Shown here piece by piece: positions 29,019 through 59,991 of a stretch of 64,000 nucleotides of DNA (position 1 is the first letter of the stretch; every line of letters begins with the position of its first letter). Source of the stretch: Gemmatimonadaceae bacterium (GTDB lineage Bacteria; Gemmatimonadota; Gemmatimonadetes; Gemmatimonadales; Gemmatimonadaceae); NCBI GenBank assembly GCA_019637445.1, contig JAHBVS010000002.1, positions 496,001 to 560,000 on the forward strand. The letters run 5' to 3'. The position numbers and the translations under genes were made by a program. Under the pieces are notes generated by a model. The model made no database searches, was not told the DNA's origin, and worked only from the letters and a program-made list of their open reading frames with translations.

Positions 29019-29156
29019 CGAGTGGGAGTGCGGTGAATGGGAGAGCCAACCCTGTGGATACCGAAAGGTTCCCGAGTGCTTGGACTCGGGCAAGGGTTTG
29101 GTTGGCATTGGTGTTCGCGTTCTGGTGCCGGGGTTTGGATGGATCTTCTTGAATTA
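29019..29156. other. Intergenic stretch upstream of rsfS (no gene seen)
   Basis: Together with the following repeat element and the rplI terminator this forms the longest gene-free region of the window (29019-29483). This first part holds a short hairpin (CCGAGT 29072-29077 with ACTCGG 29084-29089) within the predicted rsfS leader. I see no ORF with coding character and no convincing promoter, although the rsfS promoter must lie here or within the repeat element. Confidence 0.4.
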
Positions 29157-29391
29157 CCACGGAGACACAGAGACGCAGAGAACTGCGGATGCGGGATCAA
29201 CGGCGAATGCGGGACAACGGCGAGAGGCGATGCCGGAACGACAACTGCTTCTTGGGGGAGCCGCCACGCAGAGATCCGTCCAAGGGCCCTCTTTGAAAGG
29301 CTGTTGCCGTTCCCGCACCGCCGTTCGGGGGTTACCCGCATCCGCAGTCCATTCCGCATCCGCAGTTCTCTGTGTCTCCGTGTCTCTGTGG
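29157..29391 (+). repeat. Inverted-repeat element D: octamer arms with conserved hairpin core
   Basis: Two 38-nt arms (29157-29194 and 29354-29391) are inverted repeats identical at 35 of 38 positions. Each outer arm is three tandem octamers of the form NCACRGAG. Inside, each arm is followed by an 18-nt tandem duplication (29189-29206/29207-29223 on the left; 29336-29353/29354-29371 on the right). The centre (29242-29306) is a 65-nt core beginning CAACTGCT and ending GTTG that is also found, in opposite orientation, in element E near 59.9 kb (51 of 65 aligned positions identical). No protein is encoded. The element lies between rplI and rsfS. Confidence 0.8.
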
Positions 29392-29423
29392 CAAATCGCC
29401 GTTGACCAACCACGGAAACAAAC

Positions 29424-31673: not shown

Positions 31674-31703
31674 AGCTTAGGTGGGGACAGGGGGTAAGGT
31701 CAA
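31674..31703 (-). promoter_or_regulatory. Possible promoter of the rpsF operon
   Basis: On the minus strand TTGACC (31698-31703) and TAAGCT (31674-31679) are 18 bp apart and about 100 bp before the rpsF start, leaving room for the leader hairpin. The -10 element is weak. The left arm of repeat element A begins three bases upstream of the -35 element. Confidence 0.4.
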
Positions 31704-31705
31704 GG

Positions 31706-31797
31706 GCAGTGGTGAGTTATGAGTTGTGAGTCGTGAGGAGAAGCGGCCGGGCAATCATCGCAATGCTCACGACTCATGACTCACAACTCACGACTGC
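31706..31797. repeat. Element A: 92-bp palindromic element with heptamer arms, no gene
   Basis: Two arms of exactly 32 nt (31706-31737 and 31766-31797) are inverted repeats identical at 28 of 32 positions, with a 28-nt spacer. Each arm begins GCAGT at its outer end and continues as tandem heptamers of the form RTGAGTY. The same arm structure surrounds the four-helix-bundle gene at 33.9-34.4 kb, so this looks like an empty or non-autonomous member of that family. It lies between the rpsF promoter and the 3' end of the TPR gene, 8 bp from the latter, and could serve as a terminator. Confidence 0.8.
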
Positions 31798-31805
31798 GGT
31801 TGCCC

Positions 31806-32738
31806 CTACCGCATTCCCCGTCGAGCAGCCTCGGCGGCCAAGTAGCCGAAAGAAGCCGAGCGCTCCCCGGCGAGGATCTCGGCAAACAGCCGCTCCGCCT
31901 CCGCCCGCCGCCCATTCGCCAGGTACCACTGCGCCATTCCGTTGGCCATCGTCTGGGCCGGGGTGCCGGCGGTCATCTGGCTGCGAATCTGGGCGTCGGT
32001 GCGCTCGCCCTTCATCCAGAGCAGCACCTGGTGGTAGGAGCCGTTCTCGATGATGTCCCAGTCCGCGCGGATGGGGGCGAGCAGGGCCTTGGCCTTGTCG
32101 AGGTCGCCGGCGCGGCCGTGGGCGATCACCGCCCAATGGGTGGCGGCGACGCGATGGTCGAGGTTGCGCGCGAGACGCGCGTCGTCCTCCCAGAGCGCCG
32201 CGGCGCGGGCGAACTCTCCCGTCAGGAAGTAGGCCAGCGCGAGATGGTAGCGGATGTTCCCATGCAGGGTGCTGGTCGGGATGCCGCGCGCGTTGGGTTG
32301 GCCATCGGGCTCGATTTCATCCGGCGCTCCGCCAACGACGCCAAGGGCGCGGGACAGGTCGCGAATCGCCAGCGGGTACTGCCGCAGCGAGATGTAGCGG
32401 TGTCCTCGGTGCCGCAGCAGATGCGGTTCGTCCGGGTGCAGTCGCAGCCCTTCCGTATAGATGACCACCGCATCGGCGAAGGCGCCCGTGTACGCAGTGC
32501 GCCGCCCGAACCAGATGATGGAGTCGACGTTTCGCGGGGAGCGTTCCCAGGCTGCCCGGGCGGCGGGCAGGTCCTGGGGCGGTGCTTGCGCGGCGAGCGG
32601 CGCGCGCACGACGGGCGACGCTGCGAGGAGCATGAGCGCCGCGCCGCGCGCGAAGGCCGCGACGCGCGTGGTGGCGAGGCGCGCGGTGGCGACCGCTAGA
32701 GTCGGCCCCGCCACGTCCCGTTGTTCAGCCTTCGTCAT
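31806..32738 (-). CDS. Secreted TPR-like repeat protein of unknown function
   Basis: 310 residues from ATG 32736-32738. A signal peptide is predicted (hydrophobic block AFARGAALMLLAASPVV, cleavage near LAAQAP). The remainder is helical with several TPR-like units: DLPAARAAWERSPRNVDS, AFADAVVIYTEGLRLHPDEP, YPLAIRDLSRALG, IRYHLALAYFLTGEFARAAALW and AQWYLANGRRAEAERLFAEI. Such repeats mediate protein contacts in the periplasm. I recognise no specific family. It stands between ychF and rpsF in an otherwise conserved ribosomal and housekeeping chain, on the same strand, and seems to be a lineage-specific addition. Confidence 0.75.
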   Translation of the reverse strand: MTKAEQRDVAGPTLAVATARLATTRVAAFARGAALMLLAASPVVRAPLAAQAPPQDLPAARAAWERSPRNVDSIIWFGRRTAYTGAFADAVVIYTEGLRLHPDEPHLLRHRGHRYISLRQYPLAIRDLSRALGVVGGAPDEIEPDGQPNARGIPTSTLHGNIRYHLALAYFLTGEFARAAALWEDDARLARNLDHRVAATHWAVIAHGRAGDLDKAKALLAPIRADWDIIENGSYHQVLLWMKGERTDAQIRSQMTAGTPAQTMANGMAQWYLANGRRAEAERLFAEILAGERSASFGYLAAEAARRGMR

Positions 32739-32762: not shown

Positions 32763-33863
32763 TCAGACGTTGAATCGGAACAGCATCACATCCCCATCCT
32801 GCACCACGTACTCCTTGCCCTCAGCCCGCGCGACGCCCTTCTCGCGCGCGCCCTTCCAGCCACCATTCGCCACGAAGTCCGCGAAGGACACCGTCTCCGC
32901 GCGAATGAAGCCGCGCTCGAAGTCCGTGTGGATCACGCCCGCCGCCTGCGGCGCCGTATCGCCTTGATGAATCGTCCACGCGCGCACTTCCTTCTCGCCC
33001 GCCGTGAAGTAGGTCTGCAGGCCGAGCAGGTGGAAACCGCCGCGGATGAGTCGGTCGAGACCCGCGCTCTCCAGCCCCAGCGACGAGAGAAACTCCGTGC
33101 GATCCTCCGGAGGCAACTCGGCCAGCTCCGACTCGATCTTGGCCGAGAAGGTGACGACCTCGGCCGGCTCGTGGTCGGCGGCGATGGCCGCGCGCAGGGC
33201 CTTCACATGCGCGCCCTCCTCGCCTGTCAGCTCGCCGTCGGTGACGTTGGCCGCGTAGAGGATGGGCTTGAGCGTCAGCAGCTGCAGCGGCTGGAGCGTC
33301 TCGCGCTCCTCCGGCGTCAGCGCCACGTGCCACAGCGCCTTGCCCTCCTGCAGCGGCGCCAGCGCCTTCTCCAGCACCCCCGCCTCGGCCGCTGCCGCCT
33401 TGTCGCCCGTCTTGGCCGTGCGCTTGGACTTGTCGAGTCGCTTCTCCACCACGCCGAGGTCGGCGAGGGCGAGTTCGAACTCGATCGTCTCGCGGTCGCG
33501 GGCCGGGTTCACCGAGCCGTCGACGTGGATGACGTCGGGATCGTCGAAGCAGCGCACGACGTGCACGATGGCGTCGGTCTCGCGGATGTTGCTGAGGAAG
33601 GCGTTGCCGCGGCCTTCACCCTTGCTGGCGCCCTTCACGAGGCCGGCGATGTCGACAAACTGCACGGCGGCGGGGACGGTGCGCTCTGGACTCACGATCT
33701 CCGCGAGCTTGTCGAGGCGGGGATCGGGGACGTTCACCACACCCACGTTCGGGTCGATGGTGCAGAAGGGGTAGTTGGCGGCTTCGGCTTTGGCTGCCGT
33801 CAGCGCGTTGAAGAGGGACGATTTGCCGACGTTGGGGAGGCCGACGATGCCTAGGCTGAGCAT
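32763..33863 (-). CDS. ychF: Redox-responsive ATPase/GTPase YchF (OLA1 type)
   Basis: 366 residues from ATG 33861-33863; the start is fixed by the family N-terminus [22 protein letters not shown]. It is an Obg-related P-loop NTPase preferring ATP that binds the ribosome and influences oxidative-stress responses. The G1 loop is [10 protein letters not shown]3 is [14 protein letters not shown], the G4-like segment is NVTDGE, and the C-terminal TGS domain ends in [15 protein letters not shown]. The 32-nt arm of a repeat element ends only six bases before the ATG, so no Shine-Dalgarno sequence is visible. In most genomes ychF follows pth directly; here hppA and a repeat element separate them. Confidence 0.97.
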
Positions 33864-33967
33864 ATAACTGCAGTCGTGAGTTGTGAGTCGTGAGTTGTGA
33901 GGGGAAAGGTAACTGGAGGCGGGATGCGGATGATGGGATGCGGGAGGCGGAGGCGCAGCGTTCGCGC

Positions 33968-34354
33968 ATGCAACCGTTTCGACGTCTCGCGGTGTGGGAG
34001 AAGGCGCACGAGCTGACGCTGCGTGTGTTTCGGCTCGCGGAGGAAGGAGGACTGCGGAGGTTTCCTGGCCTCAGTGCCCAGCTGTGTCGGTCCGCCGCCG
34101 CCATCCCGACGAACATTGCGGAGGGCAGTGGCCACGTCTCGCCAGCGCAGTTCAAGCGCTTCCTTGAGATCGCCCTCGCCTCGGCCTGCGAGACCGACTA
34201 CCAACTACTCCTTGCGCGCGACCTCGACCTCATAGGCTCGAAGGAGTATGCGCAGCTGGAGGCGCGCCTGAGCGAAGTGCGTGCGATGCTGATGGGGCTG
34301 CGAAAGCGAGTCGCCGAAAAGGCAAAAAACCCGCATCCTGAGGCCCGCAAATGA
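33968..34354 (+). CDS. Four-helix-bundle protein (S23/23S rRNA intervening-sequence protein family)
   Basis: 128 residues from ATG 33968 ([16 protein letters not shown]); ATG 33938 would add ten residues, but family members begin like the shorter form. Diagnostic segments are [18 protein letters not shown], the very conserved [14 protein letters not shown] (about residues 43-56) and [19 protein letters not shown] (about 63-81), giving four amphipathic helices. Relatives include proteins encoded in 23S rRNA intervening sequences and the Avd accessory protein of diversity-generating retroelements; no reverse transcriptase or variable repeat is present here. It is the only plus-strand gene in this 10-kb minus-strand region and sits between 32-nt inverted arms. 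Confidence 0.9.
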
Positions 34355-34355
34355 A

Positions 34356-34386
34356 GAGGGGGAAGAAGCCAGGCTTCTCCCCCCTC
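34356..34386 (+). terminator. Hairpin directly after the four-helix-bundle gene
   Basis: Arms 34356-34370 and 34372-34386 pair over 14 positions with one bulged A, beginning one base after the stop codon. No T-run follows. The hairpin probably protects or ends the element transcript. Confidence 0.55.
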
Positions 34387-34428
34387 CGCATTCAAAGACT
34401 CATAACTCACGACTCATAACTCACAACT

Positions 34429-34460
34429 GCAGTTGTAAGTCGTGAGTTGTGAGTCATGAG
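34429..34460 (+). repeat. Extra 32-nt heptamer arm (C2) forming a palindromic junction with arm C
   Basis: Positions 34429-34460 form a third arm of the family (26 of 32 identical to arm B), facing away from arm C and sharing the central CTGCAG with it. Together 34399-34460 make a long near-perfect palindrome. It lies 14 bp past the hppA stop and could act as its terminator. Confidence 0.75.
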
Positions 34461-34474
34461 TGAACGGCAACGAC

Positions 34475-57321: not shown

Positions 57322-59819
57322 CAGGGGAGACCGGGCGCCTGACGCCCGGTGCCCAAGCCGCCGTCCGCTCCGCCATCCGCCTCGCCGGCGGGCGCGAAGT
57401 GTGCTTCGTCTGCACGATCAACGACGAGGGCGTTGTGCAGTCGGCGCGCGTGGTGGCCCGCGGCGATGTCTCAAGCGTGCTGGCATTGCCGGGCTTCGCC
57501 AATCGCGGCGAGCTGCTGCTGCACAACCACCCGAGTGGCTGGCTGGAGCCGTCCGATGCCGACCTCGCGGTGGCGGCCAAGCTGCACGATGATGGCATCG
57601 GCTTCGCCATCACGGACAACGAAGGCGCTCGGCTCTATGTGGTGGTCGAGGTCCCACGGGCCGCCAAGGTCGCTGCACTCGCGCCGGGCGACGTGGCCGG
57701 CGCGCTCGGTCCCGACGGCCCGATCGCCGCGCATCTCAAGCGCTACGAGGACCGGCCAAGCCAGCGCGAGATGGCGCGCATCGCCGCACAACTGTTCACC
57801 CGCGGTGGCGTGGGGCTGATCGAGGCCGGCACGGGCGTGGGCAAATCACTGGGCTACCTGGTGCCGGCGCTGCGATGGGCCGCCGAGAGTGGCGAGCGCA
57901 CGGTGGTGTCGACGAACACCATCACGCTGCAGGAACAGCTCACGAGCAAGGACCTGCCCTTCCTGAAGGAAGCGCTCACGGACCAGGACGTGCGCTTCGC
58001 GCTGCTCAAGGGCTGGCGCAACTACCTCTGCCTGCAGCGGCTTGAGCAGGCGCGCGCGCAGGCGCCGGTGCTCTTCGATGACGACGCATCTTCCGCGGAT
58101 CTCGCGATGCTCGAGGCCTGGGCCGAGAAGACCAAAGACGGGTCACTGGCCGACCTGACGAGCCCACCGCGCGGTGAGGTCTGGGACGAAGTGGCGGCGG
58201 AAGGCGATTTGTGCACGCGACTCAAGTGTCCGCACTTCGACAAGTGCTTCGTGTTCAAGGCGCGGCGTGCGGCGGCGCAGGCGGACGTCGTGGTGGTGAA
58301 CCATCACCTGCTGATGGCCGACATCGCGGTGCGGCGGGCTTCGGGCCGCTGGGACGAGGCGGCGGTGCTGCCGGCCTACAAGCGCTTGGTGATTGATGAG
58401 GGTCACCATCTCGAGGACGCGGCCGCCGCGCACTTGGGGCAGACGGTCTCACGCCGCGGCCTCGAGCGGCTCTTCGCACGGCTCGAGCGCCGCGGCAAGG
58501 GCCTGCTGCCGGCGCTGGAACGCAAGCTTGCGTCGGGCTCGGATCTCTACAGCGTCGCGAGTCTGGACCTGTTGCGCGCGCGGCTCGTGCCTTCGCTCAA
58601 CACGGCGCGCGAGAAGTCGCAGCAGCTCTGTGACCTGCTCACCGAATGGATGCGTGATCGCAGCGATTCCGTGGTGCGGCTGACGGAAGCCTTCGACGAT
58701 GAGCCAATCTGGAAGGCGGGGCTCGACGTGGCGCTGGACGACCTGCTGGCCGAGGTCGAGCTCTTGGCTGACGGCCTGCGGATGGTGCGCGAGCGCCTGG
58801 AATCCGACGAAGGCCGCGCCGAGGAGCTGGCGCCCTTCCTGAACGAAGTGCGCGGCGTGACGCGCCGCCTGCAGACGGCGGGCGACGCGCTGCGCTCGGC
58901 GCTGCGCCCGAGCCGCGAGGGCGCGCCGAAGGTGCGATGGTTGGAGCTACGCGGCTCAGGCGAGCGCAACGTGGGCGCCACGTCGGTGCCGCTGGACCTG
59001 GCCCCGATCCTCCGCGAGGACCTCTTCCGCCGCGTGGAGACGGCGGTGGTCACGAGCGCGACGCTGGCCGTGGGCGACGGCTTCGACTTCATCACGAAGC
59101 GCCTCGGCCTGGACGACGAGGAGTTGGAGCCGGTGACGGCCTCGCTGGCCTCGCCCTTCGACTACCCGCGTCAGGCGATGCTTCTGATCCCCAGCGACTT
59201 CCCGGCGCCGAACGCGGACGGGGCGGGGCACTTCAAACGCACGGTGGCGGCAGCGCAGGACTTGATCGAAGCCGCCGAGGGCGGGGTGTTCCTGCTCTTC
59301 ACGAGCCACCGTGACGTGCGCGAGGCGGCGTCGGCGCTCCGGGCGGCGGGCGTGGAGTCCAAGTACCCGCTGCTGGTCCACGGCGAGTCCGCGCGCGACG
59401 AACTCCTGCGCCGCTTCCGCGAGCACGGCGACGCGGTCCTGATCGGCACGGCGAGCTTCTGGGAGGGCGTGGACGTCCCCGGCCGTGCGCTGCGCGGGAT
59501 GGTGATCGGCCGGATCCCCTTCCGCGTCCCGACGGAGCCAATCACGGCGGCCCAGTGCGAGGCCATCGAGGCCGCCGGCGGCGACCCCTTTGGCCAATAC
59601 ATGATCCCGCACGCGGCCCTGCGCCTCAAACAGGGCTTCGGCCGCCTGATCCGCACGGCTTCGGACCACGGCGCGGTCATCATCTGCGACCCGCGCGTGG
59701 TAACCAAGTCCTACGGCCGCCGTCTAACCGAAGGTCTGCCTCCCGCGACTCGTCTCCAAGGGCCCTGGGCCATGCTTCGGGACGAGCTTCGGGCGTTCTA
59801 TCGCTTGGATAGAAACTGA
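57318..59819 (+). CDS. DinG/XPD-like iron-sulfur helicase with N-terminal JAB (JAMM) domain
   Basis: 833 residues from GTG 57318 (GTGA overlap). Residues 1-110 form a JAB/RadC-like domain: EVCFVCTINDEG, then HNHPSGWLEPSDAD (about 73-86) with the JAMM metal-ligand pattern His-x-His...Asp. The helicase begins near 150: Walker A EAGTGVGKSLGYL (about 169-181), STNTITLQEQL, four cysteines suited to a 4Fe-4S cluster (WRNYLC, DLC, KCPHFDKC), the DEAH-type box VIDEGHH, SATLAVGDGFDFI, GTASFWEGVDVPG and GFGRLIRTASDHG (motif VI). DinG helicases unwind 5'-tailed DNA, R-loops and G-quadruplexes. The fused JAB domain is unusual. Confidence 0.92.
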   Translation: MTGETGRLTPGAQAAVRSAIRLAGGREVCFVCTINDEGVVQSARVVARGDVSSVLALPGFANRGELLLHNHPSGWLEPSDADLAVAAKLHDDGIGFAITDNEGARLYVVVEVPRAAKVAALAPGDVAGALGPDGPIAAHLKRYEDRPSQREMARIAAQLFTRGGVGLIEAGTGVGKSLGYLVPALRWAAESGERTVVSTNTITLQEQLTSKDLPFLKEALTDQDVRFALLKGWRNYLCLQRLEQARAQAPVLFDDDASSADLAMLEAWAEKTKDGSLADLTSPPRGEVWDEVAAEGDLCTRLKCPHFDKCFVFKARRAAAQADVVVVNHHLLMADIAVRRASGRWDEAAVLPAYKRLVIDEGHHLEDAAAAHLGQTVSRRGLERLFARLERRGKGLLPALERKLASGSDLYSVASLDLLRARLVPSLNTAREKSQQLCDLLTEWMRDRSDSVVRLTEAFDDEPIWKAGLDVALDDLLAEVELLADGLRMVRERLESDEGRAEELAPFLNEVRGVTRRLQTAGDALRSALRPSREGAPKVRWLELRGSGERNVGATSVPLDLAPILREDLFRRVETAVVTSATLAVGDGFDFITKRLGLDDEELEPVTASLASPFDYPRQAMLLIPSDFPAPNADGAGHFKRTVAAAQDLIEAAEGGVFLLFTSHRDVREAASALRAAGVESKYPLLVHGESARDELLRRFREHGDAVLIGTASFWEGVDVPGRALRGMVIGRIPFRVPTEPITAAQCEAIEAAGGDPFGQYMIPHAALRLKQGFGRLIRTASDHGAVIICDPRVVTKSYGRRLTEGLPPATRLQGPWAMLRDELRAFYRLDRN

Positions 59820-59822
59820 ATG

Positions 59823-59943
59823 CCACAGAGGCACAGAGACACAGAGAACCACAACGGCCTTCAAGGGGGTCCCCTGGACAGATCCCCGCGGCGCGGACCC
59901 CCCAAGAGCAGTTGCAGTCCTCTGTGTCTCTGTGCCTCTGTGG
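59823..59943 (-). repeat. Inverted-repeat element E: octamer arms with conserved hairpin core
   Basis: Perfect 24-nt inverted arms (59823-59846 and 59920-59943), each three tandem octamers NCACAGAG, enclose a core (59852-59914) that in reverse complement aligns with the core of element D (51 of 65 positions identical, two gaps). The core folds on itself: eight consecutive base pairs (GGGGGTCC with GGACCCCC) and closing CAAC/GTTG. It begins three bases after the helicase stop and may terminate that transcript. The FAH-family gene starts 48 bp beyond it. Confidence 0.8.
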
Positions 59944-59991
59944 CCAGCAGTTAGCAAACTCTCCCGGCCGAACAGGGTAAATTCACCGTCA

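Follow-up and report, generated by a model that had tools for sequence, protein, structure and literature searches.

An IVP gene enclosed by inverted heptamer arrays in Gemmatimonadaceae: a probable hairpin-ended mobile element

The 64,000-nt window analysed here (assembly GCA_019637445.1, contig JAHBVS010000002.1, positions 496,001 to 560,000) contains, between ychF and hppA, a gene of the IVP/S23 four-helix-bundle family enclosed by two inverted arrays of a tandem heptamer. We interpret the whole as a mobile element with hairpin ends, in which the IVP protein probably recognizes hairpins of its own heptamer, a reading to which we assign a probability of about 0.6. What the data directly support is that the gene is packaged, that the repeat families match, that the unit moves as a whole, that one site bears a target duplication and that the protein is under purifying selection.

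The arm cores B (33870-33901), C (34399-34430, inverted) and C2 (34429-34460) each comprise 32 nt from GCAGT. B and C are identical at 29 of 32 positions, as stated in the original prediction, which was made from the sequence alone and placed GCAGT at the outer ends; the pairing is even longer than it proposed, reaching 39 nt at 90% identity. The arm score of the locus is 29, whereas 300 shuffles of its own flanks never gave more than 13. The heptamer pattern occurs 14 times in the window (1.8 expected) and 108 times in the whole genome, where the reversed pattern has no match; most of the genome-wide matches are short gene-less palindromes. The packaging of the IVP gene between inverted heptamer arms is real and far beyond chance.

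The same arrangement recurs across lineages. IVP genes are present in 146 of 179 Gemmatimonadaceae genomes (G000 denotes the genome under study, and codes of the type G044-G149 the others compared). Inverted arms (score >15) flank 90% of 105 IVP loci in the family, compared with 3% of mismatched-flank controls, a figure that includes near-duplicate loci; the best period is seven in 70 of 94. In a set covering many phyla and taking in the archaeal Methanophagales, 57 of 77 IVP loci (74%) score >13, against 1% of controls and 0% of control flanks moved 750 nt outward. The best period there is 7 in 42 loci, 8 in 13 and 9 in 2. Most IVP loci on cyanobacterial plasmids are likewise armed. Tandem 7-mers are known from many genomes (PMC4679880, PMC4692102), and ordinary slippage-prone repeats could in principle pair by chance around a gene; this account, to which we give almost no credence, is already refuted by the gap between 0-3% of controls and 74-90% of IVP loci. 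In Azospirillum lipoferum, the IVP unit lies within a match to large-subunit (23S) rRNA and has AGAGGAC-type arms, and rRNA intervening sequences (IVSs) and the intergenic element therefore share one architecture. A candidate terminal motif, AACNGC, was found at 29 of 188 ends in Gemmatimonadaceae and at 4 in controls; it is absent from all 74 ends in other phyla and is thus a local detail only. On cyanobacterial plasmids, IVP genes also sit inside CRISPR-Cas operons: between cas6 and cas4 in Pseudanabaena and Anabaena, where the heptamers differ, and between cas10 and cmr3 in Picosynechococcus.

The repeat unit is particular to the lineage and to the gene. Arm units differ between species and between IVP genes within one genome, while the two arms of a locus agree. 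At the ychF|hppA junction the unit is GTGAGTY in G000, GTGAGAT in G149, TTGAGAC/GTGAGAC in G138, GGAAGAC in G143 and CTGAAGG-like in G137 and G142; nearly all congeners that carry the gene at this junction have a unit of their own. Junction arms pair far better within species (median score 22.8) than between species (7.0; permutation p = 5e-5), although between-species pairing is sometimes equally good for close relatives, and the arms of G044 and G139 are weak. Of 16 congeners, 14 contain no match to the G000 unit, which has 72 in G000, and the G149 unit has 51 matches in G149 and none in G000. A second IVP gene of G000 (C1:1832234) is flanked by GATGCGG-type arms. The motif GGATGCGGG is also frequent in G000, with 24 occurrences in 400 kb against one of its reverse, and is seen in the loops of heptamer palindromes and next to the IVP gene in the window.

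Families of gene-less palindromes accompany the genes. In sampled DNA, tandem-type palindromes number 38 in 1.12 Mb of five IVP carriers and 1 in 0.80 Mb of five IVP-less genomes (raw counts). Of 31 palindromes, 19 have their best match among the arms of their own genome, where 6.8 are expected; in three genomes this count pools arms of PDDEXK_3 genes with those of IVP genes. In G083, matching gene-less palindromes accompany several different IVP genes, and among congeners the gaps near the junction that bear such palindromes vary. A first period-7 scan, too strict for the degenerate unit, detected no paired arrays over 400 kb of G000 and was superseded by better detectors. The window also holds palindromes of another family, whose unit is the octamer CACAGAGR (29151-29397 and 59814-59952), and similar octamer arms flank the PDDEXK_3/GxxExxY (PF13366) genes of G000 and congeners. 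The arrangement parallels that of IVP genes, although the protein is unrelated.

These palindromes could instead resemble miniature inverted-repeat transposable elements (MITEs) or repetitive extragenic palindromic doublets forming hairpins (REPINs), moved by an unrelated host transposase, the IVP gene having been caught in the loop as a passenger. No transposase is encoded by the element, copies without the gene are more numerous than those with it, and the 5-bp target duplication described below suits a cut-and-join enzyme; the PDDEXK_3 genes within comparable octamer arms indicate that the cargo can differ. We nevertheless consider a passenger unlikely. It would not be expected in matching arms across most phyla, nor as several IVP genes per genome that each have a separate unit and a gene-less family to go with it, and a search that detected its controls but did not extend to other transposase families found no Y1 transposase, the type of REP-associated tyrosine transposases (RAYTs), in five carrier genomes. 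No parent transposon with the same ends was recognized; an IS256-like transposase gene lies apparently inside one heptamer palindrome of G149, between the TPR (tetratricopeptide repeat) gene and ychF (L217 2395-3630). The correspondence of gene, unit and family is most simply explained by an IVP protein that reads its own hairpins.

Cyanobacteria provide evidence for movement. A junction on a Trichormus variabilis plasmid is 428 bp longer than in Nostocales relatives at 97% identity, giving a filled and an empty site: AAAAAGTAAT[element]GTAATTAAC as opposed to AAAAAGTAATTAAC, with a 5-bp target duplication, GTAAT. An Aulosira element is 82.8% identical to the Trichormus element over 419 nt, lies at another site, and its similarity stops at the arms. 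Nostoc ATCC 53789 against C052 gives another filled/empty comparison, in which the duplication, at a TAATG stop-start, is 3-5 bp long and imperfect; two further comparisons (Nostoc C052, RNR operon) gave no clean junction. At the site of the Trichormus element, plasmid pC052_E of Nostoc sp. C052 carries a truncated IVP remnant with heptamers, probably a decaying copy.

Such insertions bear on a different reading, in which the arms are a non-mobile RNA device, kept as a long double-stranded stem for processing or for insulating adjacent genes from each other, with the IVP protein as RNA chaperone and the units matched by arm-to-arm conversion. The arms remain complementary while the unit changes, the minimum-energy RNA fold pairs both arms with z = -5.95 over the whole element, RNase III cuts the stems of rRNA IVSs (PMC4990558), and Nostoc trnL introns retain a 7-nt-repeat stem as repeat classes replace one another (PMC4476775). 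Yet insertion is shown by empty sites, by the target duplication, by homology that spans the whole element at separate locations and by the repeated occupation of one junction, and local conversion leaves the genome-wide sharing of units unexplained. A purely structural role therefore seems to us rather improbable.

At the ychF|hppA junction itself, eleven of the 14 genus genomes in which it is readable, G000 included, carry the IVP gene; the exceptions are G141, G147 and G148. In the protein tree the junction genes of the genus form one clade (100/95), and those of other genera are placed elsewhere. The tree, which is built on few columns and has bootstrap values that are not fully settled, implies that the junction was occupied independently five times or more. 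On these sequence comparisons the junction gene is old and vertically inherited within the genus, and other genera gained theirs independently. A recent insertion in G000 is ruled out, since the gene is common to the genus. With the gene present at 11 of the 14 junctions, the proposal that the element splits an otherwise conserved gene order holds only in part. That of a transposase-free mobile unit draws support from recurrence across phyla, gene-less relatives, the empty site with its duplication and the repeated occupation of the junction, and needs amending in that there is no fresh insertion here. Arms of GCAGT and RTGAGTY are a valid description in this species and not a general signature, as relatives use other heptamers. 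The suggestion to look for arms at IVP genes elsewhere proved fruitful in both the family and the many-phyla set: arms are not missing from other IVP loci, and the orthologous junctions do not all carry the gene without them.

The IVP protein is a member of PF05635 (23S_rRNA_IVP/S23; 101 bits) in profile searches and also matches TIGR02436. Its AlphaFold model (pLDDT 95) is most similar in the PDB to XCC0516 (2GSC) and BT_0352 (2RLD), followed by Avd (4DWL), and it also matches Avd inside the ribonucleoprotein of a diversity-generating retroelement (DGR; 8UBE, 8UB7). The TM-score with Avd is 0.71-0.74 by query and 0.82-0.87 by target, at a sequence identity of ~11%. The dN/dS values of orthologues (0.06-0.19) indicate purifying selection and are rough, because dS is near saturation in several pairs. 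The fold match, both to isolated Avd and to Avd in the DGR particle, speaks for a reading in which IVP acts like Avd, with a reverse transcriptase working in trans on hairpin RNA. The RVT_1 domain was, however, not found in five carrier genomes while it was detected in three control genomes, and we regard retro-mobility as very improbable. The RAYT and DGR routes are thus without their enzymes in these carriers.

We return to a hairpin-ended element as the best explanation. The locus would belong to a large class of such mobile elements, each with one Avd-like IVP gene enclosed by inverted tandem arrays whose unit is 7-9 nt, and the arms would serve as the ends of the mobile unit. The IVP protein, probably ring-shaped like its relatives, would bind hairpins of its own unit and promote the copying or insertion of such hairpins, gene-less copies included; mobilization would then act in trans, with strand breakage and joining carried out by a host enzyme. 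Transcribed arms would form a long stem, which RNase III may cut back in the way known from rRNA IVSs, so that insertions would stay harmless. Continuing turnover of copies would let both arms and the genome-wide family drift jointly, giving each lineage its own heptamer.

Several observations weigh against this model. Only one target duplication is clear, the second candidate being 3-5 bp and imperfect; the remaining empty sites are too diverged or altered, and no movement is observed in this species. About a quarter of IVP loci outside Gemmatimonadaceae have no detectable arms. The excess of 38 palindromes over 1 is uncorrected for relatedness and genome size; it also includes a few short, GC-rich palindromes that may be due to chance. 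The palindrome family GACGGAT of G138 fits neither of the two IVP genes of that genome; its sister species G143 has GACGGAA arms, near this orphan unit, at its IVP gene. Finally, we know of no catalytic site in the IVP fold, and another enzyme is therefore required.

Features of the locus are collected below. The longest open reading frame (ORF) of the IVP gene begins at GTG 33890, and homology favours the downstream ATG as start. The rpsR, rpsF, TPR, ychF, hppA, pth and rplY genes around it are all on the minus strand, so that the original description of a plus-strand IVP gene with a terminator-like hairpin amid minus-strand genes is borne out. Similar GGGGAGGCC..GGCCTCCCC hairpins occur at the orthologous position in congeners. 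C2 and the right arm are capable of forming a small hairpin. A search of a phage collection gave no match at the sensitivity used, leaving a phage origin unsupported.

Table 1. Features of the IVP element and a related palindrome, in window coordinates
Feature	Position	Strand	Basis or remark
IVP/S23 four-helix-bundle gene	33968..34354	+	128 aa from ATG 33968; start fixed by homologues
Left arm, AACTGCAGT and heptamers YRTGAGT	33863..33901	+	inverted repeat, 39 nt, 90%
Right arm, inverted copy of left arm	34399..34437	-	inverted repeat with left arm
C2, additional arm adjoining right arm via self-palindrome AACTGCAGTT	34429..34461	+	inverted and direct repeats
GC-rich terminator-like hairpin, 3' of IVP stop codon, beside hppA end	about 34356..34387	+	sequence
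Gene-less palindrome of the locus heptamer, between rpsF and TPR gene	31693..31810	none	repeat and pattern scans

The closest described counterparts are 23S rRNA IVSs with an S23p/IVP ORF, such as that of Coxiella burnetii, which are excised by RNase III (PMC4990558); a role in mobility was proposed earlier for the ORF, as cited in that paper. Like the present element, they are compact and carry an IVP-family ORF flanked by complementary ends, which pair into a long stem, and the Coxiella-type IVS, of about 430 nt, has been described as selfish (PMC4990558). In contrast, the element here is intergenic, between ychF and hppA, and not in rRNA as its Azospirillum relative is, and its arms are tandem heptamers with gene-less copies of the unit across the genome. 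REPIN/RAYT systems (PMC3116915, PMC8266576) also consist of lineage-specific, genome-wide intergenic palindromes apparently tied to a gene elsewhere. Here, however, no Y1 (RAYT) transposase was found in the five carriers, the product of the associated gene is helical and resembles Avd, the arms consist of tandem arrays, and there are several gene-unit pairs per genome. With regard to MITEs, the target duplications seen are at other loci, one of 5 bp (GTAAT) at a cyanobacterial site and an imperfect one at a second site. The trnL introns of Nostoc have P6b 7-nt-repeat stems in which one whole class replaces another, and Class II, NNTGAGT, equals the unit of this locus (PMC4476775). These, the cyanobacterial heptamer repeats and the TAACTGA repeats of Beggiatoaceae (PMC4679880) are likewise intergenic or stem-forming heptamers; as far as searched, the reports do not tie them to IVP genes. 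DGR Avd (4DWL, 8UBE, 8UB7) shares the four-helix fold, and differs in its low sequence identity and in its reverse transcriptase, of which none was found in the five carriers. A literature search limited to open-access papers found no publication linking intergenic IVP genes with heptamer arrays.

IVP/S23 genes, annotated as "four helix bundle protein", are common yet unexplained, and the same is true of heptamer repeats in cyanobacteria and elsewhere among bacteria. As a tentative extension, which we would put below even odds, IVP proteins may be dedicated factors of pan-bacterial mobile hairpins that do without a classical transposase or reverse transcriptase, each reading its own 7-9-nt unit and spreading gene-less copies. 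The rRNA IVSs, cyanobacterial heptamer repeats and intergenic IVP genes would then be one system, with the PDDEXK_3 (GxxExxY)/octamer class as a parallel of the same design. Our data join IVP genes, heptamer repeats and rRNA IVSs and suggest a testable code of one protein, one heptamer. If the IVP protein does drive copying, this would represent DNA mobility without a classical transposase.
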